A stretch of DNA of 64,000 nt from Halomonas sp. THAF5a (lineage in GTDB: Bacteria; Pseudomonadota; Gammaproteobacteria; Pseudomonadales; Halomonadaceae), in NCBI RefSeq assembly GCF_009363755.1, contig NZ_CP045417.1, positions 2,542,001 through 2,606,000 on the forward strand, given 5' to 3'. Each line of letters begins with the position of its first letter. Position 1 is the stretch's first letter. Position numbers and translations under genes: made by a program. This document shows, one piece after another, positions 46,842 to 64,000 of this stretch. Below the pieces are notes generated by a model that searched no databases, was not told the origin of the DNA, and saw only the letters and a list, made by a program, of their open reading frames with translations.

Positions 46842-48305
46842 TCACATCAGCACGATGTCGTACTGCTCCTGGGAGTAGTGGGTCTCGACCTGGAAGCGGA
46901 TGGTCTTGCCGATGAACTCCTCGAGGTCGGCCACGGCGGCGGACTCCTCGTCGAGCAGCCGGTCGACCACCGACTGGGAGGCCAGCACCGCGTAGGTCTC
47001 GGCATTGTAGGCCCGCTCCTCGCGCAGGATCTCGCGGAAGATCTCGTAGCAGACCGACTCGGGCGTCTTCAGGGTGCCCCGCCCGGCGCAGGTCGGGCAG
47101 GCCTCGCAGAGCGTCTGCTCGAGGCTCTCCCGGGTACGCTTGCGGGTCAGCTGGACGAGCCCCAGCTCGGTGACGCCGGTGCACTTGGTCTTGGCGTGGT
47201 CGCGCTCCAGCGACTTCTCGAGCATGCGCAGCACCTGGCGCTGGTGCTCGGGCTCGTCCATGTCGATGAAGTCGATGATGATGATGCCGCCGAGGTTCCT
47301 GAGGCGCAGCTGGCGGGCGATGGCGGTGGCGGCCTCGAGGTTGGTCTTGAAGATCGTCTCCTCGAGGTTGCGGTGCCCCACGTAGCCGCCGGTATTGACG
47401 TCGATGGTGGTCATCGCCTCGGTGGGATCGATGACCAGATAGCCGCCGGACTTCAGCTGCACCTTGCGCCCCAGCGCCTTCTGGATCTCGTCCTCGACGC
47501 TGAACAGGTCGAAGATCGGACGCTCGCCGGCGTAGTGCTCGATGCGCTCCGCCGCCGCGGGCATGAACTCCTTGGCGAACTCGATCAGCTTGACGTAGTT
47601 CTCCCGGGAGTCGATGCGCACCTTCTCGATATCGTCACGCATCACGTCGCGCAGGGTGCGCATGAACAGCGGCAGGTCGTCGTAGACCACGCTGGGCGCC
47701 GCCGCCGTCACCTGGCGCTCGCCGACCCGGCGCCACAGGCGCAGCAGGAAGTGCATGTCGGCGGAGAGCTCCTCCAGGGTGACGCCCTCGGCGGCGGTGC
47801 GCACGATGAAGCCGCCGGTGACCTCCAGCTGCTGCTCGCCCGCCGCCGCCTCGACCAGGCCCCGCAGCCGCTCGCGCTCGGCCTCGTCCTCGATTCGCTG
47901 GGAGACCCCGTGATGGGGCGAGTCGGGCATGTAGACCAGGTAGCGCGACGGCACCGACAGGTGGGTGGTCAGTCGCGCGCCCTTGGAGCCGATGGGGTCC
48001 TTGGTGACCTGCACCACCAGGGCCTGCCCCTCGTGGAGCAGCTGGGCGATGGAGACCTGCTCGTCGGCCGGCGTGCCCGGCGGCATCACCTCGTGGGCGT
48101 GGATGAAGGCGGCGCGGTCGATGCCGATGTCGATGAAGGCCGCCTGCATCCCCGGCAGCACCCGCACCACCTTGCCCTTGTAGATATTGCCGACGATGCC
48201 GCGTCGCCGGGCCCGCTCGATGAAGGCTTCCTGCAGCACGCCGTTCTCGACGACGGCGACCCGGGTCTCCATCGGTGTCAGGTTGATGAGTACTTCACCG
48301 CTCAT
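46842..48305 (-). CDS. rng: RNase G
   Basis: RNase G is the short RNase E homologue that helps 16S 5' maturation and mRNA decay. The 487-residue protein has an N-terminal S1 domain (GNIYKGKVVRVLPGMQAAFIDIG), the catalytic DNase I-like region with IIIIDFIDMDE, and the zinc-link motif CPTCAGRG near residue 408. There is no long C-terminal scaffold, which separates it from RNase E. It sits between maf and yhdP as in E. coli. Confidence 0.97.
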   Translation of the reverse strand: MSGEVLINLTPMETRVAVVENGVLQEAFIERARRRGIVGNIYKGKVVRVLPGMQAAFIDIGIDRAAFIHAHEVMPPGTPADEQVSIAQLLHEGQALVVQVTKDPIGSKGARLTTHLSVPSRYLVYMPDSPHHGVSQRIEDEAERERLRGLVEAAAGEQQLEVTGGFIVRTAAEGVTLEELSADMHFLLRLWRRVGERQVTAAAPSVVYDDLPLFMRTLRDVMRDDIEKVRIDSRENYVKLIEFAKEFMPAAAERIEHYAGERPIFDLFSVEDEIQKALGRKVQLKSGGYLVIDPTEAMTTIDVNTGGYVGHRNLEETIFKTNLEAATAIARQLRLRNLGGIIIIDFIDMDEPEHQRQVLRMLEKSLERDHAKTKCTGVTELGLVQLTRKRTRESLEQTLCEACPTCAGRGTLKTPESVCYEIFREILREERAYNAETYAVLASQSVVDRLLDEESAAVADLEEFIGKTIRFQVETHYSQEQYDIVLM

Positions 48306-48388
48306 GCGGATATCCTTGTCCGAAAAGATCTGGCGCCATTATGACATAGCGCGCCGCGCCGTCCCGTGCCGCGATCAACGCCCCGGCA

Positions 48389-48973
48389 CTAGGCCATATA
48401 CCAAAGCGGCACGCCCTGGCGGGCGAGCAGGTTGGCGGTCTCGTAGAGCGGCAGCCCCACCACCGCCGAGTGGCTGCCCTCGATGTGCTCGACGAAGACC
48501 GCGGCCAGGCCCTGGATGGCGTAGCCGCCGGCCTTGTCGGCGGGCTCGCCGGTGGCCCAGTAGGCGGCGAGCTCGGCCTCCGTGATCGCGCGCATGAAGA
48601 CCCGGGTGGTCACGCAGGCACTCAGCACGCCGGCGGGACCGGTGACCGCCACCCCGGTCAACACCTCGTGGCGACGACCGGAGAGCGAGCGCAGCATCGC
48701 CAGGGCCTGCTCGCGGTCCGCCGGCTTGCCGAGGATCTCGCCGTCACGCACCACGGCGGTGTCCGAGCCCAGGGTCGGCAGGTCGCTCAACCGCGCGCCG
48801 GCGAGTGCCTTCTCCCGGGCCAGGCGCACCACATAGTCGGCCGCCGGCTCCGAGGGCCGCGGCGTCTCGTCGAGGTCCACCGGGCGCACGTCCACCGTCA
48901 CGCCGATCGAGGCGAGCAGGTCGCGACGGCGCGGGGAGGCCGAGGCCAGGCAGAGCACGGGGTCGTCGGTCAT
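48389..48973 (-). CDS. Maf-family nucleotide pyrophosphatase (YhdE type)
   Basis: Maf proteins hydrolyse non-canonical or canonical nucleoside triphosphates (YhdE acts on dTTP/UTP). The 194-residue product has the N-terminal signature [12 protein letters not shown], then GSDTAVV and [13 protein letters not shown], and [26 protein letters not shown] near the C terminus. The ATG at 48973 opens directly with this signature; 17 codons of open frame upstream are not conserved. It follows mreD. Confidence 0.93.
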
Positions 48974-49031
48974 GGCGGCTCCAGGTCGGATGGACGAAGA
49001 AAGGGCGAAGGAAACAGTGGGCAACGCGAGG

Positions 49032-49520
49032 TCAGTCGCGGGCGTGCCGACGGCCCAGCGCCTCGAACAGGGTGGTGAGCCAGGGCCAGAGCAGCGCCCC
49101 GATCAGCGCGGGCAGCAGGAAGGAGAGGTGCATCAGGAAGGGCCCGAACAGGGTGCGCAACCACTGCTCGGCCAGCTGGACCGTGCCCAGCAGCACGAAG
49201 ATCAGCACCGCCTGCTGGACCAGCGAATAGGCCCGGAAGCGCGAATAGACCAGCGCGCAGAGGAAGGCCAGCAGCGACAGCAGCAGCGCGTTCTGACCGA
49301 GCGGCGCGCCCTCGATCAGGTCCACCAGAAGGCCCAGCACGAAGCCGTGCAGGACGCCGACCCGCAGGGGCTCGCGCATGCACCAGTAGATCAGCATCAG
49401 GCCGAGCCAGTCGGGGCGCCATACCTGCCAGCCGTCGGCCAGCGGCATCACCTGCAGGCAGAGCGACAGCAGCAGCGTGAACCAGACCCACAGCAGGTTG
49501 GCGGGCGGGGACGTGGCCAT
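49032..49520 (-). CDS. mreD: MreD, rod-shape membrane protein
   Basis: The 162-residue protein has about five membrane spans and belongs to the elongasome with MreB and MreC, where it helps set rod shape. The motif [22 protein letters not shown] is typical. The start at 49520 shares one base with the mreC stop (TGATG). Confidence 0.93.
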
Positions 49521-50434
49521 CAGCGCGTCTCCTCGTTGGCCGGGGCTCCACCCACGGCCCGCGCCGCCTCGAGGGCCGGGGCGGCGAGTTCGCCCTCGGA
49601 GGGCGCGACGGGCCTGGCGGGGGGAAAGAGCAGCAGGAAGTGGCGCGAGCGCTGCAGCTGGGCGACGGGCGCGGCGGTGACCCGGGCGAAGGGCTCGCCC
49701 GGGTCGTGGATCACCGAGGAGACCCGCGCCACCGGATAGCCCGCCGGGAAGCGCCCGCCCAGCCCCGAGGTGGTCAGCAGGTCGCCCTCGCGGATGTCGG
49801 CCGTGTCCGGCGCGTGCTGGACGTTGAGGGCATCGTAGCTGCCCACCCCCTGGACGACGAAGCGCAGGCCGTTGCGATTGATCTGCACCGGCAGGGCGTG
49901 GCTGGCATCGGCCAGCAGCAGCACCCGACTGGAATAGGCTGAGGTCGCGGTGATCTGGCCGACCAGTCCCGAGGCGTCGAGCACCGGCTGGCCCACGTAG
50001 ACGCCGTCGCGGCGGCCACGATCGATCACCATCTGATGGGTGAAGGGGTCGGGGTCCAGGGACAGCAGCTCGGCGGTGATGTAGGGGATGTCGCGCTCCC
50101 GGGTCGCCGCGAGCAGCTCGCGCAGCCGCACGTTCTCGGCCGTGAGGCTGGCCATGCGCTGCACCCGATGCGAGAGCGTCAGGATCTGCTCGCGGAGCCG
50201 GCGGTTCTCGTCGACCAGGGCGCGCTGCTCGGAGAGTGCCAGCGCCCCCCAGTTGAGGACGTCGCTGGGCAGGCTGACCACCCACTGGATCGGCGCCACC
50301 AGGGTCGACAGCTGGGCCCGGACGGGCTCCATGCGCGTGAAGCGCGCGTCGGCAAACATCAGGGCCGCGGCCAGCATCGCACACAGCAGCATGCGATAGC
50401 CCGGCAGCGGTCCGTGCGAGAACAGCGGTTTAAT
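49520..50434 (-). CDS. mreC: MreC, rod-shape protein, probably from an ATT start
   Basis: MreC is a bitopic periplasmic scaffold of the elongasome: one membrane span, a coiled coil (about residues 70-115 with RRLREQ) and a beta-rich C-terminal domain. The first in-frame ATG is at 50392 and gives 290 residues, but that start removes the cytoplasmic N terminus. Fourteen codons upstream the sequence reads ATT AAA CCG CTG TTC, matching the family start (M)IKPLF. AGGGGG stands six bases before the ATT. No ATG, GTG or TTG occurs between an upstream stop and this codon. I therefore place the start at ATT, 304 residues. Confidence 0.85.
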   Translation of the reverse strand: MKPLFSHGPLPGYRMLLCAMLAAALMFADARFTRMEPVRAQLSTLVAPIQWVVSLPSDVLNWGALALSEQRALVDENRRLREQILTLSHRVQRMASLTAENVRLRELLAATRERDIPYITAELLSLDPDPFTHQMVIDRGRRDGVYVGQPVLDASGLVGQITATSAYSSRVLLLADASHALPVQINRNGLRFVVQGVGSYDALNVQHAPDTADIREGDLLTTSGLGGRFPAGYPVARVSSVIHDPGEPFARVTAAPVAQLQRSRHFLLLFPPARPVAPSEGELAAPALEAARAVGGAPANEETR

Positions 50435-50466
50435 GAGCGACCCCCTGCATCAGGCCAGCGCCTCCG

Positions 50467-52005
<1,539 letters not shown>

Positions 52006-52023
52006 TCACGGAGCCCAGGGCCC

Positions 52024-53484
52024 ATGCATGACAAGACACTGACGGAACTCGCCGCCAGCCTCGCGGCCGGCGAGTTCTCCAGCCGCGAGCTCACCGAGAG
52101 CCTGCTCGCGCGCATCGAGCGCCTCGACGGCGAGATCAACAGCTTTATCACCGTGACCCCGGAGCAGGCGCTGGCCGCCGCCGATGCCGCCGACGCGGCC
52201 CGCGCCCGGGGCGAGGCCGGCCCGCTCACCGGACTGCCACTGGCGCTCAAGGACATCTTCTGCACCACCGGCGTGAAGACCAGCGCCGGCTCGAAGATGC
52301 TCGACAACTTCGTGGCGCCCTACGACGCCACCGTGGTCGAGCGGCTCAATGCCGCCGGCGCCGTGAGCCTGGGCAAGACCAACATGGACGAGTTCGCCAT
52401 GGGCTCGTCCAACGAGAACAGCTTTTTCGGGCCGGTGAAGAATCCCTGGGACACCGCGGCGGTGCCCGGCGGCTCCTCCGGCGGCAGCGCCGCCGCCGTG
52501 GCCGCGGGTCTGGTGCCCGCCACCCTGGGCACCGACACCGGCGGCTCGATCCGCCAGCCGGCCGCCTTCTGCGGCATCACCGGCCTGAAGCCTACCTACG
52601 GGCGCGTCTCGCGCTACGGCATCATCGCCTACGCCTCGAGCCTCGACCAGGCGGGCCCCATGGCGCGCACGGCCGAGGACTGCGCCCACCTGCTCGGCGC
52701 CATCGCCGGCCATGACCTGCGCGACTCCACCAGCGTGGCGCGCGGCGTGCCGGACTACACCGCCGAGCTCGACGCGCCCCTCGCGGGACTCAAGATCGGC
52801 CTGCCGACCGAGTACTTCGGCGAGGGCCTCGACCCCGAGGTCGAGAGCGCCGTGCGCGAGGCGATCCGCGTCTACGAGTCGCTGGGTGCCACGGTGCGCG
52901 AGGTGAGCCTGCCGCACACCCACTTCGCCATCCCCGCCTACTACGTCATCGCCCCGGCGGAGGCTTCCTCCAACCTGGCGCGCTACGACGGCGTGCGCTT
53001 CGGCCACCGCTGCGAGGCCCCCACCGACCTCACCGACCTCTACCTGCGCAGCCGCGCCGAGGGCTTCGGCGAGGAGGTCAAGCGGCGCATCCTGATGGGC
53101 ACCCACACCCTCTCCGAGGGCTTCTTCGACGCCTACTACAAGAAGGCCCAGCAGGTGCGCCGGCTGATCCGCCAGGACTTCCTCGACGCCTTCGACGAGG
53201 TCGACGTGCTGATGGGCCCGGCCTCGCCGACCCCGGCCTTCGACCTGGGGGCGAAGAAGGATCCGGTCTCGATGTACCTGCAGGACATCTACACCATCGC
53301 CATCAACCTGGCGGGCATCCCCGGCATCAGCGTGCCGGCCGGCTTCGCCGGCGGCCGCCCGGTGGGCCTGCAGGTCCTCGGCACCCACTTCGCCGAGGCG
53401 CGGCTGCTCAACGTCGCCCACCAGTTCCAGCAGGCCACCGACTGGCACCTGCATCGTCCCGCTCTCGCCGAGGAGTCCCTGTGA
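52024..53484 (+). CDS. gatA: GatA, amidase subunit of Asp/Glu-tRNA amidotransferase
   Basis: GatA hydrolyses glutamine to supply ammonia for converting misacylated Glu-tRNA(Gln) or Asp-tRNA(Asn). The 486-residue amidase-signature protein has the full Ser-cisSer-Lys site: Lys76 in LALKDIF, Ser151 in [10 protein letters not shown] and Ser175 in [10 protein letters not shown]. The presence of gatCAB shows that the organism uses the indirect route for at least one amide tRNA. It overlaps gatB. Confidence 0.97.
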
Positions 53485-54938
53485 TGCAATGGGAAACCGT
53501 GATCGGGCTGGAGGTCCACGTCCAGCTCGCCACCCGTTCCAAGATCTTCTCCGGCGCCTCGACCGCCTTCGGCGCCGAGCCCAACAGCCAGGCCTGCGCC
53601 GTCGACCTGGGCATGCCCGGCGTGCTGCCGGTGCTCAACGAGGCCGCCGTGGCCATGGCCGTGCAGTTCGGCCTGGGCATCCACGCCGAGATCCCCGAGG
53701 TCTCGGTGTTCGACCGCAAGAACTACTTCTACCCGGACCTGCCCAAGGGCTACCAGACCAGCCAGATGTATCACCCCATCGTCGGCCCCGGCGAGGTGGA
53801 GATCACCCTGGATGACGGCAGCACCAAGGCCATCCGGGTCCACCACGCCCACCTCGAGGAGGACGCCGGCAAGTCGCTCCACGAGGACTTTCACGGCATG
53901 ACCGGCATCGACCTGAACCGCGCCGGCACGCCGCTGCTCGAGATCGTCTCCGAGCCGGACATGCGCTCGGCCAAGGAGGCCGCGGCCTACCTCAAGGCGA
54001 TCCACTCCATCGTCACCTACCTCGGCATCAGCGACGGCAACATGGCCGAAGGCTCGATGCGCTGCGACGTCAACGTCTCGGTACGCCCCAAGGGCCAGGC
54101 CGAGTTCGGGACCCGCGCCGAGATCAAGAACGTCAACTCCTTCCGCTTCGTCGAGCGGGCCATCGCCTTCGAGGTGGAGCGCCAGATCGAGCTGCTCGAG
54201 GATGGCGGCGAGGTGGTCCAGGAGACCCGCCTCTTTGATCCCGAGCGCGACGAGACCCGCAGCATGCGCACCAAGGAGGAAGCCAACGACTACCGCTACT
54301 TCCCCTGCCCTGACCTGCTGCCGGTGGTGCTCGACCAGGCCTACGTCGATCACCTGCGCGACAACCTGCCGGAGCTGCCCGCCGACAAGCGCGCCCGCTT
54401 CCAGGACGCGCTGGGACTCTCCGCCTACGACGCCGGCGTGCTCTCGGCGAGCCGCGAGATGGCCGAGTTCTTCGAGCGGGTCAAGGACGTCTGCGGGGAT
54501 GCCAAGCTGGCCGCCAACTGGGTCCAGGGCGAGCTTTCCGGCGCCCTGAACCGCGAGGGCCTGCCGATCCAGAACAGCCCCGTCTCGGCCGACCAGCTGG
54601 GCGAGCTGGTCGCCCGGGTGAAGGACGAGACCATCAACGGCAAGGCCGCCAAGCAGGTCTTCCAGGCGCTGTGGAACGGCGAGGGCGAGAGCGCCGACGC
54701 CATCATCGAGGCCAAGGGCCTCAAGCAGGTCACCGACACCGGCGCCATCGAGGCGATGATCGACCAGGTGATCGCGGACAGCCCCGCCCAGGTGGCCCAG
54801 TACCGCGACGCCGAGCCCGACAAGCGCGGCAAGATGATCGGCTACTTCGTCGGCCAGGTGATGAAGGCCTCACGAGGCACCGCCAACCCCCAGCAGGTCA
54901 ACGCCCTGCTCAAGGAAAAGCTCGACGCCCTGTGCTGA
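53484..54938 (+). CDS. gatB: GatB, kinase/transamidase subunit of Asp/Glu-tRNA amidotransferase
   Basis: GatB activates the misacylated tRNA with ATP and transfers ammonia to it. The 484-residue protein begins [16 protein letters not shown], has [17 protein letters not shown] and the zinc- and metal-site region, then a C-terminal YqeY-like tail. I chose the ATG at 53484, which shares one base with the gatA stop. A GTG one codon earlier (53481) is also possible. Confidence 0.96.
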
Positions 54939-54943
54939 GCATC

Positions 54944-54966
54944 GGGGCGGGCCTCGCGCCCGCCCC
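54944..54966 (+). terminator. Hairpin after gatB
   Basis: GGGGCGGGC pairs perfectly with GCCCGCCCC around a five-base loop, starting 5 bases after the gatB stop. No T tract follows, so it may be a weak or Rho-assisted stop. Confidence 0.55.
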
Positions 54967-55063
54967 TCGATTCAGCGACCGGAGCCACGGCAGACAGCGT
55001 CGACGCATGGCGGCGAGCCCCACCGCGACCGCCACCCCGCCGCGTACCCTCCGAGCCGACGGC

Positions 55064-55234
55064 TCAGGCCTGCTTCAGTTTCTCGATCTCCTCACGCAGC
55101 GCTTCCGCCTCCTCGGTCAGCGAGGCGTTGGCCCGCATGTCGCCGTTTCGGGCGGCCAGCATCGCCTGCTCGAGCTTCTCCTCGTACTGCTTCTGAAGCT
55201 TCTTCTGCGGGTCGGTCTTGAAGAGTCCGAACAT
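55064..55234 (-). CDS. Small coiled-coil protein, DUF6435-like
   Basis: The 56-residue protein begins MFGLFKTDPQKKLQKQYEEK and then forms a charged amphipathic helix rich in Glu, Ala and Leu to its end. This matches the small family named DUF6435 in gammaproteobacteria, of unknown function. CAGGAGACAG precedes the ATG at 55234. An in-frame ATG 18 codons upstream lacks a ribosome site. There is no signal peptide, so it is probably cytoplasmic. Confidence 0.8.
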   Translation of the reverse strand: MFGLFKTDPQKKLQKQYEEKLEQAMLAARNGDMRANASLTEEAEALREEIEKLKQA

Positions 55235-55297
55235 GGGTCTGTCTCCTGTTGGCAGGTTTCCAACCAGCCTACGCCATATCCTATACAAACTCTATAC

Positions 55298-55313
55298 AGA
55301 ATTATCATTCTGC
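55298..55313. promoter_or_regulatory. Palindrome in the AT-rich upstream region of the DUF6435-like gene
   Basis: CAGAAT-TATC-ATTCTG is a perfect inverted repeat 64-79 bases upstream of the small gene. Two direct copies of TGTATAG, 11 bp apart (minus strand, 55282-55299), lie between it and the gene. The layout suggests an operator and promoter, but I cannot name the regulator. Confidence 0.35.
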
Positions 55314-55722
55314 ATTAACCCTTATGACGCCCCCTCCCCCTCTGGTCGGACGCGACTGCCGGCGCCTGGACGCTCCCCAGCTAAGCCCTCTGCCGGGATT
55401 CGGCGTCTGCCCATGGCGTAGACGCCTTCCCCCTCACTGCCCCCGACGGGAAATGATCATCGATCCGCCTAGCGATATTCCTCGTGCCGCACGGAGTGAC
55501 CGGCCCCACACCTTCCCTAAGACCTGGGCCCTTTCCGCAAGCTGACTGCGCGCGGCCATTCGGCGAAAGCATCGTCATAAGGGACTCATTCACGCGCTGT
55601 GAACGCCGTCTTTTCGCTGATGATATCCTTGCCTGACCCTCGTTCGCCGACTTTCAGACACCGCCCAGAGCCACCTCGAGCGTCTCGACTTTTGACAACC
55701 CGCCCCTGCCTTGAGACTATCC
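55314..55722. other. Non-coding gap, no recognised gene
   Basis: I see no credible gene, tRNA or repeat in these 400 bases. The only structure is a 7 bp inverted repeat (GGCGTCT / AGACGCC, 55402-55426). Base composition falls here, marking the left border of the lower-G+C LacI-symporter-PHP cassette. Confidence 0.5.
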
Positions 55723-55740
55723 TATGCAAAATTTTGCATA
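55723..55740. promoter_or_regulatory. 18-bp perfect palindrome upstream of the LacI-type gene
   Basis: TATGCAAAATTTTGCATA is a perfect 18 bp palindrome. It overlaps the -35 region of a probable promoter for the regulator gene, which is where a repressor would act. Its centre is AATT rather than the CG usual for LacI-family sites, so the binding protein may be a different family. Confidence 0.5.
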
Positions 55741-55760
55741 AAAGCGGCGCCTGATATAAC
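55733..55760 (+). promoter_or_regulatory. Possible promoter of the LacI-type gene
   Basis: TTTGCA (55733-55738) and TATAAC (55755-55760) are spaced by 16 bp. The palindrome at 55723-55740 covers the -35 element. A leader of about 145 bases would precede the start codon. Confidence 0.4.
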
Positions 55761-55910
55761 CATAGGCAGTCACCCCATCGAGGATCGGCTTAGCAGATCG
55801 CAAGGCTCGCGCACCGGCCGGCAGGGAAAAAGTCCTGGCGTCCATCACTTCCCCGATGTCGGCTTAGTAACGGCGCACTACCGCCACCCTATCATCGACT
55901 GGTGTGAACG

Positions 55911-56939
55911 ATGGAAAAACCCAAGAGAGCAGGTGTCAGGGAAGTCGCCAAGCTGGCCGGCGTGTCCGTTGCAACGGTCTCTCGGGCACTCAACACCCCA
56001 AATAAAGTGTCGGACACCACGGTCGAGAGAGTACGCAAGGCCGCCGACCATCTCAATTTCATACCCAACAGCTCGGCCAGGGCGCTCTCCAGCAGCCGAA
56101 CCAGGTCGATCGGCATCGTGATCCCGACGCTGGAAAACCTGACATTCGCTAAGTTCATTGATGCGCTTGAAAGCGCCTTGTCAGCAAAAGATTACAACCT
56201 GGTCGTCTCTACCACACAAAAGGGAAAAATCCCCGAGAGCGAAAAAATAAGGAGGCTGGTCAACATCGGCGTAGAGGCCTTGATCCTCCCCGGCGCGAGC
56301 CATAGCAAGGAAAGCATCGATTACCTGAAAAAACTATCGATCCCATGTATCTACAGCAGCATCTACAGCCAGAGCCCATCGTCGACCACCATCGGGTATG
56401 ACAACTACAACCTGGCGAAAGAACTGGCCAGGCACCTGATTGACCTAGGGCATGAACGCATTGCCATCCTGTCGGGCCAGATTGACAACAATGACAGGGC
56501 TCATCTTCGCTACCAGGGCGCGCGAGCTGAAATCGACAAGCTCACCTCTTCGGATAGCCGACTCGATCGGTTTGTCGATATATCGACGAGTGCGGCACAC
56601 CAAGCAGTCACTCTGCTTTATGACCATGAGAAGGCATGCCTCAGAAACAACATCACAGCGCTACTCTGCCTCAGTGATGTCCTGGCCATCGGCGCCCTGT
56701 TTTCCCTCGAGAAGTTAGGCTTGCACGTTCCCGACGATGTCTCCGTGGTAGGCTTCGATAACATCGAGATGTCGGAGTTTACCAACCCGCCATTGACGAC
56801 CATTGATCTTCCCGTACACGATATGGGCACGAAGATTGCTGATGAAATCATTGCCCACCTGGAAACCGGCAAAGCCATCAACTCACAGCTGTTAGAGGCA
56901 CAGTTGATCATCCGCGAGAGTTCTGGACCGGCATGCTGA
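55911..56939 (+). CDS. LacI-family transcriptional regulator
   Basis: The 342-residue protein has an N-terminal helix-turn-helix, VREVAKLAGVSVATVSRALN, a hinge helix with SSARALSSSRT, and a periplasmic-binding-protein-like sensor domain from GIVIPTLENL. These are standard LacI/GalR features, so it probably represses until a small ligand binds. The ligand is unknown. Composition is clearly lower in G+C than the rest of the window. It is convergent with the symporter-PHP operon, whose promoter carries a LacI-style operator, so it is the likely regulator of that operon. Confidence 0.92.
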   Translation: MEKPKRAGVREVAKLAGVSVATVSRALNTPNKVSDTTVERVRKAADHLNFIPNSSARALSSSRTRSIGIVIPTLENLTFAKFIDALESALSAKDYNLVVSTTQKGKIPESEKIRRLVNIGVEALILPGASHSKESIDYLKKLSIPCIYSSIYSQSPSSTTIGYDNYNLAKELARHLIDLGHERIAILSGQIDNNDRAHLRYQGARAEIDKLTSSDSRLDRFVDISTSAAHQAVTLLYDHEKACLRNNITALLCLSDVLAIGALFSLEKLGLHVPDDVSVVGFDNIEMSEFTNPPLTTIDLPVHDMGTKIADEIIAHLETGKAINSQLLEAQLIIRESSGPAC

Positions 56940-57029
56940 ATCGAGCATGCTCCTCCATCAACGACCGGGTCATCCGCCCCCATCGCGCAATGCTTACTCC
57001 GGCTGGATGGCGCTGCCAGACCCTGCTTC

Positions 57030-57053
57030 GATACAGTGTTCAGGCACCGTATC
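57030..57053. terminator. Possible hairpin between convergent lacI-type and PHP genes
   Basis: GATAC-A-GTG and CAC-C-GTATC pair around TTCAGG. The repeat overlaps the PHP-gene stop codon. No T tract is seen. Confidence 0.35.
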
Positions 57054-58089
57054 AATCCCCCCATGAAGGCCCATAGACGGGCTGTAACCACGCACGTTTC
57101 AGGGAGTTGGACGGTGACTCTGCCTGAAACCTGATATATTTCCAATTGCCCTGCAGCGTAAAGTCCCACTCGCTGCTTACATCCGATGCTTTCTCTCGCC
57201 GCAACGCAAATTCTGAGCCATTTTCCTCGTAGACCACAGCGCTCCACTTTACCCCTTCGTCGGCGTTCAGATGAAAGCGATACCGTTCCCCATCAAACTG
57301 CATCTCCAGGGGGCTCTCACCAAGTGTTACCCCTGTGCTCGCATAAAAGTTTCCCTTCCTGATGTTATCGACGATATCTTTTCCATTCTTGCGACTGAAG
57401 ACCATCAGATAGCCCAGCGGGGAAAAGTTTTCATACACATAGGCTTCCCGATAAAACTCGTCGTTGCCGGCAAAGCCGAAACACCGGTACCCGCGACACA
57501 GCAGATCATCCCAGCACGGCTCGCTGAAGTCCGGGGAGTAACGCCTTGCCCCCAGGTGCTCTTCCAGGACGGAAAGTCCATTGTATACTTCTATTCCCAG
57601 CACATTGAGATCGGAAAGTCGTTCACAGGGATCAAGAAGTGCAGAACGAATACGGGGCCACTCCCCTCCCGCTCGTGGCCTCGTGCTCTCGAAGAAACAT
57701 GGATGGCAACAGATGGACACCCCCCCCTTTCCTCCAACCGTCAAGACATGCAGGTATTTCGCGGCCTCCCCTTGAAAATATCCACCCTCGTAACCCCCAT
57801 TGTCTATCGTATCGTTCTGCAGCTCTCGCCCGGGGATAATAACGATATCCTCTCGCTCCTCACCCTGCGAAAAGGTATCGATCGACTCTATATATGGGTG
57901 AACCGACGTACAGATGAAGTCAAAGCAAAAGGGTTCCAGCCTCGACCTTTCGATAACCCACTCCCTCTCTCCACCATGATCCCTGTCCATGGAAATATCA
58001 TCATGAAAATCTTCATCCGTATGCACATGAATATTGCCTTTCAGCCATCTTTCCTCGCCATGGCATGATGTCTCTACGCTGTGCTTCAT
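57052..58089 (-). CDS. PHP-fold metallohydrolase, CehA/McbA-like
   Basis: The 345-residue protein starts its domain with LKGNIHVHT (His21, His23), the PHP-type first metal motif. Further likely ligands are His64 (TSVHP), Glu89 (PGRE), His129 (CCHP), Glu167 (GIEVYNG) and Asp210 (GND). The usual final DxH is replaced by GNDEF, so one ligand differs. A C-terminal beta-rich region of about 90 residues follows. The layout resembles CehA/McbA-type hydrolases; the substrate is unknown. It is the second gene after the symporter. AGG precedes the chosen ATG at 58089; a GTG lies two codons upstream. Confidence 0.75.
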   Translation of the reverse strand: MKHSVETSCHGEERWLKGNIHVHTDEDFHDDISMDRDHGGEREWVIERSRLEPFCFDFICTSVHPYIESIDTFSQGEEREDIVIIPGRELQNDTIDNGGYEGGYFQGEAAKYLHVLTVGGKGGVSICCHPCFFESTRPRAGGEWPRIRSALLDPCERLSDLNVLGIEVYNGLSVLEEHLGARRYSPDFSEPCWDDLLCRGYRCFGFAGNDEFYREAYVYENFSPLGYLMVFSRKNGKDIVDNIRKGNFYASTGVTLGESPLEMQFDGERYRFHLNADEGVKWSAVVYEENGSEFALRREKASDVSSEWDFTLQGNWKYIRFQAESPSNSLKRAWLQPVYGPSWGD

Positions 58090-58170
58090 GACCACCTCGA
58101 TAAAGGCCGACAGCCGGAGAACAGCCGTCGACCCACTACGATTATCAATTAAAGAAGAGAGATACCACTC

Positions 58171-59622
58171 TTACACCGCGTCAGTAGCATCGGAGAAGGA
58201 AGGAGAAACTTGCTCTTGTCTTCCTGACCAGTAAAACGCTCTCACATCCTCTCTGACTCCATGCTCACTCATCAGGCTCACGACCAGAAGCGAAAGAAAA
58301 GAGATGATGAAACCAGGGTAAGCGGGGTCGATACTATCAACAAACAGAGGCCATACTGCCGTTGTGCTGAGAGCCAGCGCCATACTGGCGATACAGCCTT
58401 TCGAGGTCACACGCTTCCAGAACATGACGGCGAGGAAGGGGAAGATCAGTGTCGTGGCTGAAATCCTGAGAGCCCACTGGTACATGGAAATGATATCGGT
58501 CATCAAGAATGCCACGCCTAGTGACAGCAAGGATATGACAACCACACTAATCCTTGCGGAACGCATTTTCTGGGCTTCCGTCGCATTCTTGTTGACAAAA
58601 TTACCGTACAGGTCATGTGCCAGGTTGGAGCTTCCCTGGAGGATATAGGAGTCCGCCCCGGTCATGAGCGCCGACATCAGGCCCACGACCACCAGCCCGC
58701 CAAGCGCCGGATGCAGCAACTCCATGGTGACAAAGGAGAACACGAGATCCGGGGAAGTTTCCAGGGGGACAAATTGCCGAGCCAGGACACCAATGCAGTA
58801 GGGAAGGAAGGAGATGACGATCACGATCCCAAAGCCGCTGACGCCAGCCCTGATCGCCACATCTTCTGTTTTCGATGCAAAGATCCGTTGCCAGGTAGAC
58901 TGCCAAACGAGGTAGAAGGGAGCAACCGTCAAGGCGAATGTCACGACCTCCCAGGTCTTACCAGAAGGAATAGGGACCAGATACTCTCGATCCGTATTTA
59001 TCAGGGCTGCATCTATACCGCCAGCATACTGGACAGCAAAATAGGCCAGGACGACGATGCCAGCTATGACGATGACGCTCTGTAATGCGTCGGTCACGAT
59101 CGTGGCCTCGAGGCCACCCAAGATCGTGAACCCTAGGATCAGGGCGAAAGACAGTAATATTGCAAGGTCGAGCTCAACTCCGAACACGACATTGAAAACC
59201 GTGCTCATCCCGACCATTTGCAATGCGGTCGCAGGCACCGAATAGACAAAGGCAGAAAAGATGGATGGCAACAGGCCGGCGCGGCGCCCAAACCTACGTG
59301 AAAAGAGATCGGCCAGTGTGTACAGCTTCTGCCGTCTCAAGGGACGGCTGAAAAAGACGATCAGCAACAGGCTGACAAAGATTCCCGGCAGAGCGAACAT
59401 GAAATAGCCGGAAACCCCTTTGGAAAACCCCATTCCGACCCACCCAATAAAGGCAGCAGCACCACACCAAGTGCTGATAATCGTGCCGGTGATCTTCCAG
59501 TAGCTCATGTTCCAGCCAGCGATCAGGTAGGCATCGGAAGTTTTTACCTTGAGAAAGTAATATCCCCCTATCAAGAACATGAAAGAAAAATACACCACGG
59601 TGTATGTGTAATACCATTCCAT
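58171..59622 (-). CDS. Sodium:solute symporter (SSS family)
   Basis: The 483-residue protein has about 13 hydrophobic segments. Its N-terminal part, with SDAYLIAGWNMSYWKITGTIIS and TWCGAAAFIGWVGMGFSKG, then the middle TILGGLEATIVTDALQSVIV, is typical of the solute:sodium symporter family. Such proteins import sugars, amino acids, carboxylates or compatible solutes; the substrate here cannot be read from sequence. The ATG at 59622 follows TGGAG. It precedes the PHP gene by 81 bp in the same direction, which suggests import followed by hydrolysis. Confidence 0.9.
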   Translation of the reverse strand: MEWYYTYTVVYFSFMFLIGGYYFLKVKTSDAYLIAGWNMSYWKITGTIISTWCGAAAFIGWVGMGFSKGVSGYFMFALPGIFVSLLLIVFFSRPLRRQKLYTLADLFSRRFGRRAGLLPSIFSAFVYSVPATALQMVGMSTVFNVVFGVELDLAILLSFALILGFTILGGLEATIVTDALQSVIVIAGIVVLAYFAVQYAGGIDAALINTDREYLVPIPSGKTWEVVTFALTVAPFYLVWQSTWQRIFASKTEDVAIRAGVSGFGIVIVISFLPYCIGVLARQFVPLETSPDLVFSFVTMELLHPALGGLVVVGLMSALMTGADSYILQGSSNLAHDLYGNFVNKNATEAQKMRSARISVVVISLLSLGVAFLMTDIISMYQWALRISATTLIFPFLAVMFWKRVTSKGCIASMALALSTTAVWPLFVDSIDPAYPGFIISFLSLLVVSLMSEHGVREDVRAFYWSGRQEQVSPSFSDATDAV

Positions 59623-59662
59623 AGCGACTCCAGATATCTTTCTATATTGTTTGCAAGCTGGA

Positions 59663-59676
59663 TGTAACCGGTTACA
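59663..59676 (-). promoter_or_regulatory. LacI-type operator of the symporter-PHP operon
   Basis: TGTAACCGGTTACA is a perfect 14 bp palindrome with a central CG, the style of LacI/GalR-family operators. It lies 41-54 bases upstream of the symporter start and directly at the predicted transcription start, where repressor binding would block initiation. The regulator at 55911-56939 is the obvious candidate. Confidence 0.75.
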
Positions 59677-59683
59677 CGAAAAC

Positions 59684-59711
59684 AGAATAGCCCACAATCC
59701 CGCCTTGTCAA
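59684..59711 (-). promoter_or_regulatory. Predicted sigma-70 promoter of the symporter-PHP operon
   Basis: On the minus strand a perfect TTGACA (59706-59711) is followed after 16 bp by TATTCT (59684-59689). The start would fall near 59677, at the edge of the operator. Confidence 0.65.
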
Positions 59712-60202
59712 AACCTTTTTCCTCTTCCTCCGCTGGAGTCGGCTACAACGGTGATGAGCGGATATCGTTAATGCAAGGCATCACTCAATTAAACGGGGCT
59801 AAGGGGCAGCCCCTGGAGACGGCCGGCGCCGCGAACGTCGAAGGCTTCGCGAAAAGACACCCTCCACCATGTCCGTCAGCCCCTTGCTTCGGGCGCGCGG
59901 GTGGCACGGCGAGCGAAGGACATGACGGCCCTCGGGAAAGGGGTCGCCCTGCGAGGCGGGCAGTGTGTAGAGAGGCTGCCGGCAGCCCCCTGCCGGCGCC
60001 GAAGAGGAGAAACAAGGCGGAACCGGAGAGGGTCGAGATCATCGTGGACGATACGCAGGTCGCCCACAGGCCAACCGCAAGGACCGCGTCCGGGCCGGAC
60101 AGCCGCCTATCGACGAGGCGGCACGGGAAAGTTCTCGCCCTCGGGTGGCAAGCGTCATCCAAGGGCGGCGAGCCATACCGTCAGGCTTCGCCTGCCCTGC
60201 CT
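59712..60202. other. Non-coding region with several GC-rich hairpins
   Basis: I found no convincing gene here. Short open frames lack ribosome sites and family likeness. Visible structures are GGGGCT/AGCCCC (59795-59813), a strong 8 bp stem GCCGGCAG/CTGCCGGC with a CCCC loop (59978-59997), and palindromic CGAAGGCTTCG (59839-59849). G+C returns to the host level near 59790. It may hold a structured RNA or the remains of a lost gene. Confidence 0.4.
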
Positions 60203-60248
60203 GACACGACCGCGCCCCGGTCATCTCTGGCCGGGGCGCGGTCGTGTC
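60203..60248. terminator. Long perfect hairpin after the glycine-zipper gene
   Basis: Perfect 18-base arms (60203-60220 and 60231-60248) flank a 10-base loop, 26 bases after the glycine-zipper gene's stop codon. No T tract follows. It resembles the long hairpin at 14351-14394 in having very long perfect arms. Confidence 0.6.
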
Positions 60249-60273
60249 GGAGAGTGGCGCGGGGAAACGGCGC

Positions 60274-60828
60274 TCAGGTCTCCCGGGAGGCGACGGCGTC
60301 CCACTGGGGCCGCCCCTCCTCGAGCAGCACCCGGTCGCCCTGGGGCCGGTGATCCAGGCGGGTGGTCTGCACCGCCTCGCCGTGACGCCAGGTCACCTCG
60401 TAGCCCGTGGTCTCCTCACGGGTATCGACCACCGTCTCGCACTGCCGCTGGGTGGTGGTGGTCGTCTGGCCGGCTTCGACGCGACGCTGCACCTCACGGC
60501 CCGCCAGGCCCCCGCCGATGGCGCCCGCCACGGTGGCAATCTTCTTGCCGCTGCCGCCGCCCACCTGGTTGCCCAGCAGGCCACCGACGATGGCACCGGC
60601 CGCCGTGCCGACGACGCTGTGCGGATCGCGGGTCGGCGCCTGCTGCTGCACGACCACGTCCCGGCACACCTCCCGCGGGGTCTCCACGGTGCGGGTCAGG
60701 GTCTCGACGTTGGTGATCTGGGCGTACTCGGGCCCCCGCTGCGCGTCCTGGACCTGCCAGGCCCCGAGGGCGATGCCGCCCAGGCCCAGCACGGCCAGGG
60801 TGGAGCCCACCACGATCGACTTGCTCAT
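60274..60828 (-). CDS. Glycine-zipper 2TM-domain envelope protein
   Basis: The 184-residue product has an N-terminal hydrophobic signal or anchor (about residues 5-24). Near residues 75-112 lies a glycine-zipper region, GTAAGAIVGGLLGNQVGGG followed by AGAIGGGLAGREVQ, as in outer-membrane proteins of the SlyB/RcnB-neighbour type. The C-terminal part has CETVVDTREETTGYEV, a pattern common to such proteins. AGGAGG precedes the ATG at 60828. The function is unknown; a role in envelope integrity is likely from the family. Confidence 0.8.
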   Translation of the reverse strand: MSKSIVVGSTLAVLGLGGIALGAWQVQDAQRGPEYAQITNVETLTRTVETPREVCRDVVVQQQAPTRDPHSVVGTAAGAIVGGLLGNQVGGGSGKKIATVAGAIGGGLAGREVQRRVEAGQTTTTTQRQCETVVDTREETTGYEVTWRHGEAVQTTRLDHRPQGDRVLLEEGRPQWDAVASRET

Positions 60829-60963
60829 GTTCACCTCCTGGAGGACGCGGCTGCGCCTCATGACGGTCACCGGGAGATGCGTGACGAAAAAAAGGTGCGA
60901 TGGCGAGGGCGCCTCCTGCGTCCCCGCGGATCGTCCCAGTATAGGGGGCCGATGCACCGGACT

Positions 60964-61899
60964 TCAGCCCCTCCCCGCAGGTTTCACAATCCCTGCCCCG
61001 CTGTCGGCAGACGACGACAGCACAGGCACGATCGCCTGGCCAGCGCAGTGGCGTGCACAGAGCGCCTCCAGCCAGGCACGGCTCGGGCCGACCTGGTTGA
61101 AGGAGTAGACGTGAAGGCCGGCGAACCCGCCGGGGTCGTTCAGCGACGGCCAGAGCCCGTGCAGCAGCGCCTCGGGGCGGTACACGGCCGGGCGCAGCAG
61201 CCGCCCGAGCAGCCCCCGCTGGCGACCCAGCGCCCGGGTCGAGGGTCCGAGGCCGATGCGCAGGGCCACGGAGAGCAGCCGGGCATGGGCGATCACGCCG
61301 GGAATCCCCGCATAGACCGGCAGCGATAGTCCCCCGGCGCGCTGACGGCGCAACCAGTCGAGCAGCGGCGCCGACTCGAAGCACATCTGGGTGACCGCGT
61401 AGTCGGCGAGCCGTGCCTTGGCATCGAGGTCACGCTGCAGCAGCCCGGCCTCGAGCTGCCCGTGCCCTTCCGGATAGGCCGGCACACCGAGCCGCGCCGG
61501 CCGGCCGGGAAGCCGTGACAGGGCCTCGAGCAGCGCCAGGCCGTCGGCATAGTCGCCCGCCGGCCGGGGGGCATCGCCGCCCACCACGAAAGCCTCGTCG
61601 ATCCCGGCGGCCGCCAGACGCCCCGTGATCCCCTCCAGGTGAGCGTGGTCGCGCACCAGGCGGGCGGCGAGGTGAGGCACCGTGCAGAAGCCCTCCCGGG
61701 CGAGCCACTCCGCCGCCTCGAGGGTCCGCTCGATGCCGTGACGCGGCGAGCAGGTCACCGTGACCCAGGCCCCGGGGGGGAGCTGGTGGGCGGCCTCGGC
61801 CAGGGTCGACAGGGGCAGCAGCTCGTAGCGCGGCCGGGCCAGGGCCAGGCACCCCCGGCACCGCTCCTCCGGGGGCGTGGCACGGCACAGGTTGTTCAT
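60964..61899 (-). CDS. MetF-like methylenetetrahydrofolate reductase family protein
   Basis: The 311-residue protein has features of the MTHFR TIM barrel: VTVTCSPRHGIERTLEAAEW near the N terminus, VPHLAARLV, VVGGDAPRPAGDY, and DYAVTQMCFESAPLLDWL near residue 190. The family reduces 5,10-methylene-THF with FAD, or runs in reverse in methyl-group oxidation. The N terminus has a short Cys motif (CRGCLALARP) not seen in E. coli MetF. It begins 3 bp after the DmdA-like gene, so it probably handles the methyl-THF that gene makes. Confidence 0.8.
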   Translation of the reverse strand: MNNLCRATPPEERCRGCLALARPRYELLPLSTLAEAAHQLPPGAWVTVTCSPRHGIERTLEAAEWLAREGFCTVPHLAARLVRDHAHLEGITGRLAAAGIDEAFVVGGDAPRPAGDYADGLALLEALSRLPGRPARLGVPAYPEGHGQLEAGLLQRDLDAKARLADYAVTQMCFESAPLLDWLRRQRAGGLSLPVYAGIPGVIAHARLLSVALRIGLGPSTRALGRQRGLLGRLLRPAVYRPEALLHGLWPSLNDPGGFAGLHVYSFNQVGPSRAWLEALCARHCAGQAIVPVLSSSADSGAGIVKPAGRG

Positions 61900-61902
61900 G
61901 GG

Positions 61903-63099
61903 TCAGCCCTTGGGGATGTCCTTGCGCGGATCGTGGAACGGCTTTTGCACCACCACCGCCTCCTGCATGCCGGTATTGGCCTCGATGCGCAGCGGCGTGC
62001 CGAGCTCGGCGTGGGAGATCGGCACCATGGCGTAGCCGATGTTGCGCTCCTGGCGCGGTGAGCGAGTGGCCGAGGTCACCTTGCCGATCAGCGCCCCGCT
62101 GCTGTCATGGACGGGGAAGACGTCGACCATCGAGCCGTCGGTGAAATAGCCGATGCTCGGGCCGTCGATCTCCACGCCCACCAGCTTGCGCGAGACCCCT
62201 TCGGCCTTGATGCGCTCCAGGGCCGCGCGGCCGACGAAGTCGTCATCGCCGCGCAGGTCGACCATCCAGTCGTAGCCCATGCCCACCTCGAAGGGGTTGG
62301 TGTCGTACCAGATGTCGCAGCCGAAGGCGAGGATCCCGCCCTCGATGCGGCGGATGTGGCAGGGGCCGATCACCTGCATGCCGTGGGGCCGTCCCGCCTC
62401 GAAGACCCGCTGCCAGAGGGCCTCGCCATAGCGGGTCGCCTCGCGCAGGTAGATCTCGTAGCCGATCTCGCCGGAGTAGCCGGTCCGCGAGATCACCACC
62501 GACATGCCGTCGAGCTCCGCCTCCATCAGGTGGTAGTAGGGCATCTCCAGCACCCGCTCGCCGAACAGGTCGACCATCACCGACTTGGCCAGCGGCCCCT
62601 GGACCTGCACCGGCGCCACGTCCACCTCGCGGATGGTGACGTCCAGGCCGGCGTGGTAGGCGAGCCCCTGACACCAGAGCAGCACGTCGCTGTCGGCCAG
62701 CGAGAGCCAGAAGCGATTCTCCTCGATGCGCAGCAGCACCGGGTCGTTGATGATGCCGCCGTCATCGGCGGTGACGAAGACGTACTTGCACTGGCCGACC
62801 TGGCAGTGGCGCATGTCCCGCGGCACCAGCCGCTGGGTGAAGGTGAAGGCGTCGGGGCCGCTGATCTCGATCTGGCGCTCCACGCCCACGTCCCAGAGGG
62901 TGACGCCCTGCACCAGCGCCCAGTACTCGTCGACCGGGTCGGTGTAGAGGCGCGGATGGTAGTGATGGTTGTAGACGCTGTACTTGCGCACCCCGTGGCG
63001 CCGGGAAGCGTAGAAGAAGGGCGACTTGCGGATCCGCGGATAGAGCAGGATCTCCGGTGCCGCCTGGGTGTGGTCGAGGCTTTCGATGACCTGGGACAT
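61903..63099 (-). CDS. GcvT/DmdA-family tetrahydrofolate-dependent demethylase
   Basis: The 398-residue protein has the GcvT (aminomethyltransferase) fold. Its sequence pattern is close to DmdA, the dimethylsulfoniopropionate demethylase: VYNHHYHPRLYTDPVDEY, LWDVGVERQIEISGPDA, NDPVLLRIEENRFWLSLADS, then RTGYSGEIGYEIYL. It may demethylate DMSP or another methylated osmolyte, passing the methyl group to THF; the substrate is not certain. The ATG at 63099 follows GGAGAGACGAAC. It is followed by the MetF-like gene and is divergent from an FAD oxidoreductase. Confidence 0.8.
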   Translation of the reverse strand: MSQVIESLDHTQAAPEILLYPRIRKSPFFYASRRHGVRKYSVYNHHYHPRLYTDPVDEYWALVQGVTLWDVGVERQIEISGPDAFTFTQRLVPRDMRHCQVGQCKYVFVTADDGGIINDPVLLRIEENRFWLSLADSDVLLWCQGLAYHAGLDVTIREVDVAPVQVQGPLAKSVMVDLFGERVLEMPYYHLMEAELDGMSVVISRTGYSGEIGYEIYLREATRYGEALWQRVFEAGRPHGMQVIGPCHIRRIEGGILAFGCDIWYDTNPFEVGMGYDWMVDLRGDDDFVGRAALERIKAEGVSRKLVGVEIDGPSIGYFTDGSMVDVFPVHDSSGALIGKVTSATRSPRQERNIGYAMVPISHAELGTPLRIEANTGMQEAVVVQKPFHDPRKDIPKG

Positions 63100-63389
63100 G
63101 TTCGTCTCTCCTGTGCTGATGCGAGGCCCTGCCAAGCGGCCTCGTGGCGGATGCCGAAAGGCCGTTCATGCCCTCGAAGCTAGTCCCCCGCGCCTGCGGC
63201 CACGCCGCCAGCGGCGACGGGCACTTTGGTCCCAGCGACACGCGGCGCCGCTTTTCCCGCCCCGCCGACGGCGCGCGCTCGAGGCTGGTCGCCGCGGGAC
63301 AAGAACCGGTCGGCCAGAGCAAACGGGCGGCGGCGGCCTGTCTTATGGTGAAGCCAACGGCGGCGAGCCATCGGCAGTGGAGAACGGCC

Positions 63390-64000
63390 ATGACGACACT
63401 TCCCAAGCACGCAGACGCGGTGATCATCGGCCAGGGCGGCATCGTCGGCGCCTCGGTGGCCCACCACCTGATCGAACAGGGCTGGACGAACCTGGTGGGG
63501 CTCGAGAAGTCCGCCATCCCCTCGGACATCGGCTCGACCTCCCACGCCTCGGACTTCTGCTACATGACCGCCCACGACAAGATGTCGTGCTATACCACCA
63601 CCTACAGCCGGGCGTTCTACGAGCGCCGGGGGCATTACCAGCGGGTGGGCGGGCTCGAGATCGCCCGGGTCGGCGACGAGGCGCGGCTGGCGGAGCTCAA
63701 GCGCAAGGTCGCCTCGGGCAAGGCCTTCGGCACCCGCGCGAGGATGATCGGCCCGGACGAGGTCGTCGAGCGCTTCCCGCTGCTCGAGCGCTCGCTGGTG
63801 TTGGGCGGTCTCTGGGATCCGGACGCCGGGCTGGTGGTGCCCCGCTCGCAGCGGGTCGCCGGCGAGCTGATCGAGGAGGCGGTGGCCTCGGGCCACCTCC
63901 AGGCCTTCGCCGACACCCCGGCCATCGACATCGACGTCGAGGCGGGCCGAGTACGCGGCGTCATGACGGCCCGCGGCTATATCGCCACCCCGGTGGTGAT
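63390..64000 (+). CDS. FAD-dependent oxidoreductase, DAO/sarcosine-dehydrogenase-like (partial)
   Basis: The gene runs off the right edge; 203 codons are visible. The N terminus holds a Rossmann dinucleotide motif, AVIIGQGGIVGASVAHHL, as in the D-amino-acid-oxidase superfamily. GSTSHASDF follows, where dimethylglycine and sarcosine dehydrogenases have their FAD-linked region. Such enzymes oxidise N-methyl groups and pass formaldehyde to THF, often with a fused GcvT domain further on. GGAG precedes the ATG at 63390. It is divergent from the DmdA-like gene with 290 bp between. Confidence 0.85.
   Translation, partial: MTTLPKHADAVIIGQGGIVGASVAHHLIEQGWTNLVGLEKSAIPSDIGSTSHASDFCYMTAHDKMSCYTTTYSRAFYERRGHYQRVGGLEIARVGDEARLAELKRKVASGKAFGTRARMIGPDEVVERFPLLERSLVLGGLWDPDAGLVVPRSQRVAGELIEEAVASGHLQAFADTPAIDIDVEAGRVRGVMTARGYIATPVV

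Follow-up and report, generated by a model that had tools for sequence, protein, structure and literature searches.

Local catabolic regulons of the LacI family comprise one adjacent operon and a short palindromic site near its promoter. Hydrolases of the CehA/McbA family (NCBIfam NF038032) have a PHP-type domain with HxH, GxE and HP motifs, and in the PHP phosphoesterase RNase AM, according to the excerpts available of PMC9410882, Asp20, His45 and His257 bind a third Mn and a sulfate contacts all three metals. In other Halomonadaceae, a symporter of the sodium:solute symporter (SSS) family lies beside metallo-amidohydrolases in a cluster of LysR, M20 amidase, SSS, Amidohydro_3 and CobW genes. 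The locus described here belongs to a 64,000-nucleotide stretch of Halomonas sp. THAF5a (the window, taken from a genome of one contig of 3.8 Mb) and combines a LacI-family regulator, an SSS symporter and a divergent PHP-type protein. It differs from the local LacI regulons in that the partner genes do not appear sugar-related and the regulator is convergent with its operon, and from the amidohydrolase cluster in having LacI instead of LysR and a PHP gene. The locus is interpreted as a horizontally acquired, substrate-induced uptake-and-hydrolysis cassette, with a probability of about 0.6; it probably imports and splits one small molecule. Its main features are the following:

55911-56939, plus strand: LacI-family regulator, 342 aa (PF00356, 64.9 bits, cut-off 27; PF13377, 106.3 bits, cut-off 26.5); 58% identical to the Oceanisphaera copy (locus L005) and 55% to the Cobetia-like copy (locus L011, genome G030)
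57052-58089, minus strand: divergent CehA/McbA-like PHP-type protein, a predicted hydrolase with a C-terminal beta-sandwich (profile, structure prediction, alignment); 58% identical to both copies
58171-59622, minus strand: SSS symporter, 483 aa, first gene of the operon (SSF domain PF00474, 155.5 bits, cut-off 22.8); 76% and 73% identical to the L005 and L011 copies
59663-59676, no strand: predicted LacI operator TGTAACCGGTTACA (conservation across copies, occurrence in the genome)
59684-59711, minus strand: operon promoter TTGACA-16-TATTCT (sequence, promoter scan)

The lacI gene, whose product has both an N-terminal LacI helix-turn-helix and a periplasmic-binding-like effector domain, converges on an operon of two minus-strand genes, the symporter first and the PHP gene second. 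For the symporter, the ATG at 59622, preceded by GGAG, is the most likely start and the TTG at 59697 was set aside; for the PHP protein, the ATG at 58089, preceded by GAGG, is preferred to the GTG at 58095.

Conserved predicted operator and recurrence of the gene set

Upstream of the symporter, the three complete copies, which belong to three genera, share one arrangement: TTGACA, a 16-bp spacer, a -10-like hexamer (TATTCT in the window, TAAAAA and TAGATT in the partner copies), 7 bp and then a palindrome or near-palindrome. This 14-bp LacI-type site starts exactly 35 bp past the start of the -35 box in each copy and reads TGTAACCGGTTACA in the window, TGTAACCGATTACA in L005 and TGTAACGGGTTACA in L011, the partner sites differing from the first by at most one mismatch. 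When the upstream regions of the two partner copies are shuffled by mononucleotide, a site this similar turns up 2 and 4 times per 100,000. Taken by itself, the promoter scan does not exceed chance expectation (2 sites versus 2.5 expected from shuffles), and the argument rests on the conservation across genera. In the whole genome, TGTAACCGGTTACA occurs exactly once, and two other positions differ from it by 2 mismatches; at up to 2 mismatches, none was found in a 400-kb sample of this genome, in six amidohydrolase-linked loci of related symporters (L021-L026) or in L012, the locus of a second Cobetia-like genome, G068. The segment AGVSVATVSR is identical in the three cassette LacI proteins and, as in GalR, favours TGTAA half-sites. 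LacI-family sites are usually even palindromes with a central CG (1251 of 1303 regulators even, 1173 with CG, in the excerpts of PMC4052901), a form found in the window and L005. The site lies just past the -10 box, where a repressor would be expected to bind. Since a LacI-type palindrome occurs at the same spacing in all three copies, there is good indirect evidence, at the level of sequence, that the LacI protein controls the SSS-PHP operon.

Two further elements precede lacI:

55692-55722, plus strand: possible lacI promoter with TTGACA at 55692 and a weak second hexamer (sequence); not returned by the promoter scan
55723-55740, no strand: perfect 18-bp palindrome TATGCAAAATTTTGCATA, 170 bp ahead of lacI and just after the TTGACA box

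As a candidate operator of the operon, TATGCAAAATTTTGCATA was ruled out: it lies upstream of lacI, lacks a central CG and has a 16-bp core for which a scan of 29 other loci gave no match at up to 3 mismatches. It is unique in its own genome, the nearest other place having 3 mismatches. Elsewhere in this genome (G000), two identical TGTAAGCGCTTACA palindromes, at G000:C1:2803708 and 2807224, are 3.5 kb apart and possibly serve as operators of another LacI-family regulon.

The PHP clade is rare. A search of about 5.8 billion protein sequences, limited to entries sharing short words, returned nine close relatives with 44-58% identity, the next match having E = 3e-7. Among 250 genomes of the family, a whole-genome search with the clade alignment found it in three (G000, G030 and G068); the counts are 1/341 in the order and 1/369 in the class (in both the own genome, plus one weak partial match), 1/398 in the phylum at E 1e-20 (the own genome) and 2/6 in the genus of G030, these genome sets overlapping. 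A pattern scan of genome contigs gave one locus, that of Oceanisphaera psychrotolerans (L005), and a scan with the window PHP protein alone gave none; such scans are not exhaustive and missed known members, e.g., Marinobacterium (P0006). No relatives were found in viral contigs, and the only plasmid match was a partial one of 28.8% in Agrobacterium.

Three of the four readable PHP-clade loci (the window, L005 and L011) carry the complete set of symporter, hydrolase and convergent regulator in the same order and orientation; this count leaves out the clade members of Oceanimonas and Marinobacterium rhizophilum as well as P0005 and P0007-P0009. A GNAT acetyltransferase gene lies beside the PHP gene in both Cobetia-like loci (L011:12476-12955, L012:10891-11322) and was not found in L107, L105, L005 or the window. 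The earlier note on this DNA had proposed that the three genes form a self-contained unit whose operon has its own promoter and an operator, a reading that would fail if the set never co-occurred in other genomes or if the LacI protein bound an unrelated site instead of the operon promoter. The gene set is confirmed, LacI and SSS by Pfam; the recurrence answers the first point directly, and the LacI-type palindrome at the promoter of every complete copy answers the second indirectly, at the level of sequence. The note had also recognised no described pathway with exactly this set; among the papers listed from the open-access literature, none describes it by title or abstract start. PMC4237134 was ruled out as such an account, the genes in its available part being unrelated and the 'LacI' matches being parts of 'lacisaponensis'.

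Origin of the cassette and the replaced puu site

The region 55723-59711 has a G+C content of 0.529, compared with a genome mean of 0.685 (standard deviation 0.041) over 340 overlapping 4-kb windows drawn from 20 stretches of 20 kb. Only 11 of these windows have a G+C of 0.56 or less, ten of them from one other stretch (L083, 2.38-2.40 Mb). The G+C at third codon positions is 0.58-0.67 in the three cassette genes versus 0.88-0.96 in the neighbouring GatA, GatB, MTHFR-like and DmdA-like genes. The cassette has a G+C of 0.567 in Oceanisphaera (flanks 0.598) and of 0.613 in G030 (flanks 0.622), and therefore fits these hosts better. L083 (G000:C1:2380001-2400000) is itself a second, longer low-G+C stretch, with values down to 0.50 per 4 kb.

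The site was compared with the stretches downstream of gatB in 20 of the 61 genus genomes with gatB matches, mostly those of highest GatB identity; three were too short. All 17 long loci have a PuuR-like gene immediately downstream of gatB, then, at some distance, a PuuC-like aldehyde dehydrogenase, together with an aminotransferase (at least 80% identity in 15, 41-42% in two); a PuuA-like ligase is present in 15 and a PuuD-like hydrolase in 14. The order gatB-PuuR-PuuC-aminotransferase-PuuD-PuuA-GlyZip is kept in each of the eight loci that reach GlyZip. These puu-type names are best NCBIfam matches, four of the five being below the curated cut-offs. In the window, none of the five genes was found between gatB and GlyZip; the closest PuuA match in the rest of the genome is 38% identical. 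When the flanks are compared by blastn with the 20 relatives' loci, similarity on the left ends at 55248 in the longest-reaching matches (55252 in L065) and resumes on the right at 60206, which defines one further feature:

55249-60205, no strand: segment in place of the relatives' puu cluster, bounded by the loss and return of DNA similarity to relatives

The cassette stands where a puu (polyamine) cluster has been lost, as relatives hold puu-type genes there and the window has none at that site. A direct empty site is seen in G057, of the same Cobetia-like genus as G030, where the LysR and XRE-cupin genes that flank the cassette in G030 are adjacent; the other three cassette-free genomes of that genus have different genes after LysR. 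Oceanisphaera provides a third genomic context, and three contexts suggest that the unit moves between genomes. Acquisition from elsewhere is thus supported by the base composition and by the replaced or empty sites in relatives; both the deviant composition and the gain had been read from the window sequence alone and held up in these comparisons. No tRNA was found in 48000-64000, and of 11 short direct-repeat families none provides a convincing flanking repeat; two sub-threshold Rfam miRNA matches at the hairpin 60203-60248 are taken as chance.

To the left of the replaced segment, 55030-55248 comprises up to 219 bp with no evident gene and no Rfam family; it is about 80-86% identical to the stretch at and after the end of the PuuR-like gene in 12 of the 20 relatives' loci, and is kept in the window though that gene is gone. 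To the right, 60964-63135 encodes an MTHFR-like protein (far below NCBIfam cut-offs) beside a DmdA-like GcvT-family protein (328 bits, cut-off 410), a pair perhaps involved in methyl-group catabolism. Its link to the cassette is weakened by the occurrence of one or both genes near GlyZip in 4 of the 20 cassette-free relatives' loci (L051, L052, L054 and L056). Likewise, the transaminase/dehydrogenase pair beside the Cobetia-like copy is found with LysR in all four cassette-free genomes of that genus, which weakens its link.

The PHP protein and its putative metal site

Pfam gives no match for the window PHP protein or for any of the eight other clade members tested. NF038032 matches it with 37.2 bits over residues 16-330, short of the curated cut-off of 80; the clade members P0006 and P0004 score 39.7 and 42.6, and the non-clade proteins P0016 and P0014 score 111.1 and 98.3. 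The predicted structure, obtained with AlphaFold from 76 sequences (an earlier input of 10 gave a pLDDT of 65.5), has a PHP domain in the form of a distorted barrel and a C-terminal beta-sandwich; the nearest solved folds are 3e38, 2anu and RNase AM, which are PHP phosphoesterase-like. In particular, 3e38 is BVU_3505, a two-domain PHP-like protein with 15% identity to the window protein. A sequence search of the PDB (alignment A1) returned a chance match only.

Members of the clade are 41-58% identical to the window protein. An alignment of 10 clade rows with 66 non-clade rows, the residues being assigned to metals by sequence, indicates that the likely metal ligands H23, H25, H131 and D212 are kept in 10/10 members and E91 and H66 in 9/10. 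In contrast to the CehA/McbA family, the clade lacks the aspartate of the SDH motif (Asp65, replaced by V or I in 10/10 versus D in 66/66 other rows) and the histidine of the DAH motif (position 213, E or D in 10/10 versus H in 66/66), and has an extra stretch of about 10 residues with an invariant Asp37. The three-metal site of RNase AM and CV1693, as described in the part of PMC9410882 used here, may be kept in part at most: by the same mapping, only the His45-equivalent is kept in register (9/10), the His257-equivalent is missing in 10/10, and the Asp20-equivalent, the aspartate of the SDG motif, is out of register in 10/10, although an Asp occupies the next position in 7/10 (the window protein is not among these) and the invariant Asp37 is nearby. 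On sequence grounds, the protein appears to be related to the CehA/McbA hydrolases yet not a typical member; of the earlier assignment as a CehA/McbA-like PHP metallohydrolase, the PHP fold, as predicted, and a weak family relationship stand, and full membership does not, given the score below the cut-off and the changed SDH and DAH residues.

Proposed mechanism and alternative explanations

Bond type is suggested by the relatives of the symporter. Close homologues (E 1e-120 or better) occur in 8 of the 250 family genomes, two of them with the PHP gene (the window and G030). The other six loci (L021-L026), with symporters 63-67% identical to that of the window, all contain LysR, SSS, Amidohydro_3 and CobW genes, and five an amidase of the M20 hydantoinase/carbamoylase family, missing in L026; the Pfam and NCBIfam names for this cluster come from scans of the L022 copies. 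The NCBIfam matches of the L022 copies include ErtE and ErtD (ergothioneine utilisation), below cut-off. In a 61-row tree (the 9 loci, for which genomic context was read, and 52 of 120 listed homologues), the symporters of the cassettes fall, with one Zobellella entry among them, in a single six-row branch (100/100) that is separate from the amidohydrolase-linked ones. Because related symporters sit beside amidohydrolases in all six loci, an amide, ureide or carbamate is favoured as the substrate by analogy.

In the proposed mechanism, the LacI-family repressor would bind TGTAACCGGTTACA just downstream of the -10 box and shut the SSS-PHP operon; the imported compound, or its product, would bind the repressor and open it. 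The symporter would bring the compound in, presumably with Na+ as is usual in its family, and the PHP protein, acting as a hydrolase that depends on metal but has a changed metal site, would cleave a bond that is most likely an amide, ureide or carbamate (C-N or ester), the products entering central metabolism.

Several observations weigh against the cassette reading. The L011 operator has a central GG instead of CG, and its distance to the symporter ATG is 172 bp compared with 54-61 bp in the other copies; no good operator copy precedes the lacI genes (best sites with 6, 7 and 3 mismatches in the three copies), so autoregulation of lacI is not supported. In G068, the 19-kb locus holds the PHP gene and the neighbouring GNAT gene with no symporter or regulator. 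The third-metal site looks altered, by sequence, and activity is not assured; the related transporters behind the proposed bond type may move a different compound.

The altered site also bears on two other views of the PHP protein. It could be a phosphoesterase, with a small organophosphate or a phosphodiester as the compound that the cassette takes up and cleaves: the classical activities of PHP proteins are those of phosphatases and nucleases, and the closest solved folds are phosphoesterase-like. Nevertheless, this is unlikely, since two of the three residues corresponding to the third-metal ligands of RNase AM, a site in which the sulfate touches all three metals, appear absent or out of register in all ten clade members; in addition, SSS symporters are not known to take up phosphate esters. 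It is very improbable that the protein is non-catalytic, as a metal-poor binding protein or a regulator of the transporter. Ligand positions are changed in the clade, and loss of metal residues can leave a PHP domain inactive, that of E. coli PolIII alpha, with 5 of 9 altered, being an example (excerpts of PMC5636811); however, the remaining likely ligands show little or no variation among clade members, despite such low overall identity.

A sugar or sugar-derivative operon, in which LacI senses a carbohydrate, SSS imports it and the PHP protein removes an acyl, carbamoyl or phosphate decoration, is less likely still than the phosphoesterase. Some SSS proteins carry sugars. Most characterised LacI-family regulators sense sugars, according to the abstract of PMC4052901, which is a further point against the uptake-and-hydrolysis cassette as proposed; on the other hand, the related symporters accompany amidohydrolases, and no sugar kinase, isomerase or glycosidase was recognised by eye in the lists of open reading frames beside the three complete cassettes, a check made with no profile scan.

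Beyond the uptake-and-hydrolysis cassette itself, a tentative possibility is that the PHP clade represents an enzyme family of its own, in which the metal site has been rebuilt, probably for two metals, and the reaction is unlike those of CehA/McbA or the PHP phosphatases; together with the symporter and LacI, it would make up a mobile module for the catabolism of a natural compound from saline habitats, replacing polyamine-breakdown genes of the host. Regulator-transporter-hydrolase modules are of a common kind; this one is special for its rare divergent PHP clade, for a promoter/operator geometry kept across genera and for the clean replacement of a polyamine cluster. As the module is compact and probably self-regulated, growth or reporter screens can find the ligand, the substrate and the enzyme together. 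Through the cassette, a rare PHP clade beyond the reach of Pfam models would receive its first assigned function; the cassette would also test how PHP chemistry shifts when the third metal site changes, and would show how such bacteria swap whole nutrient-use modules at one site.

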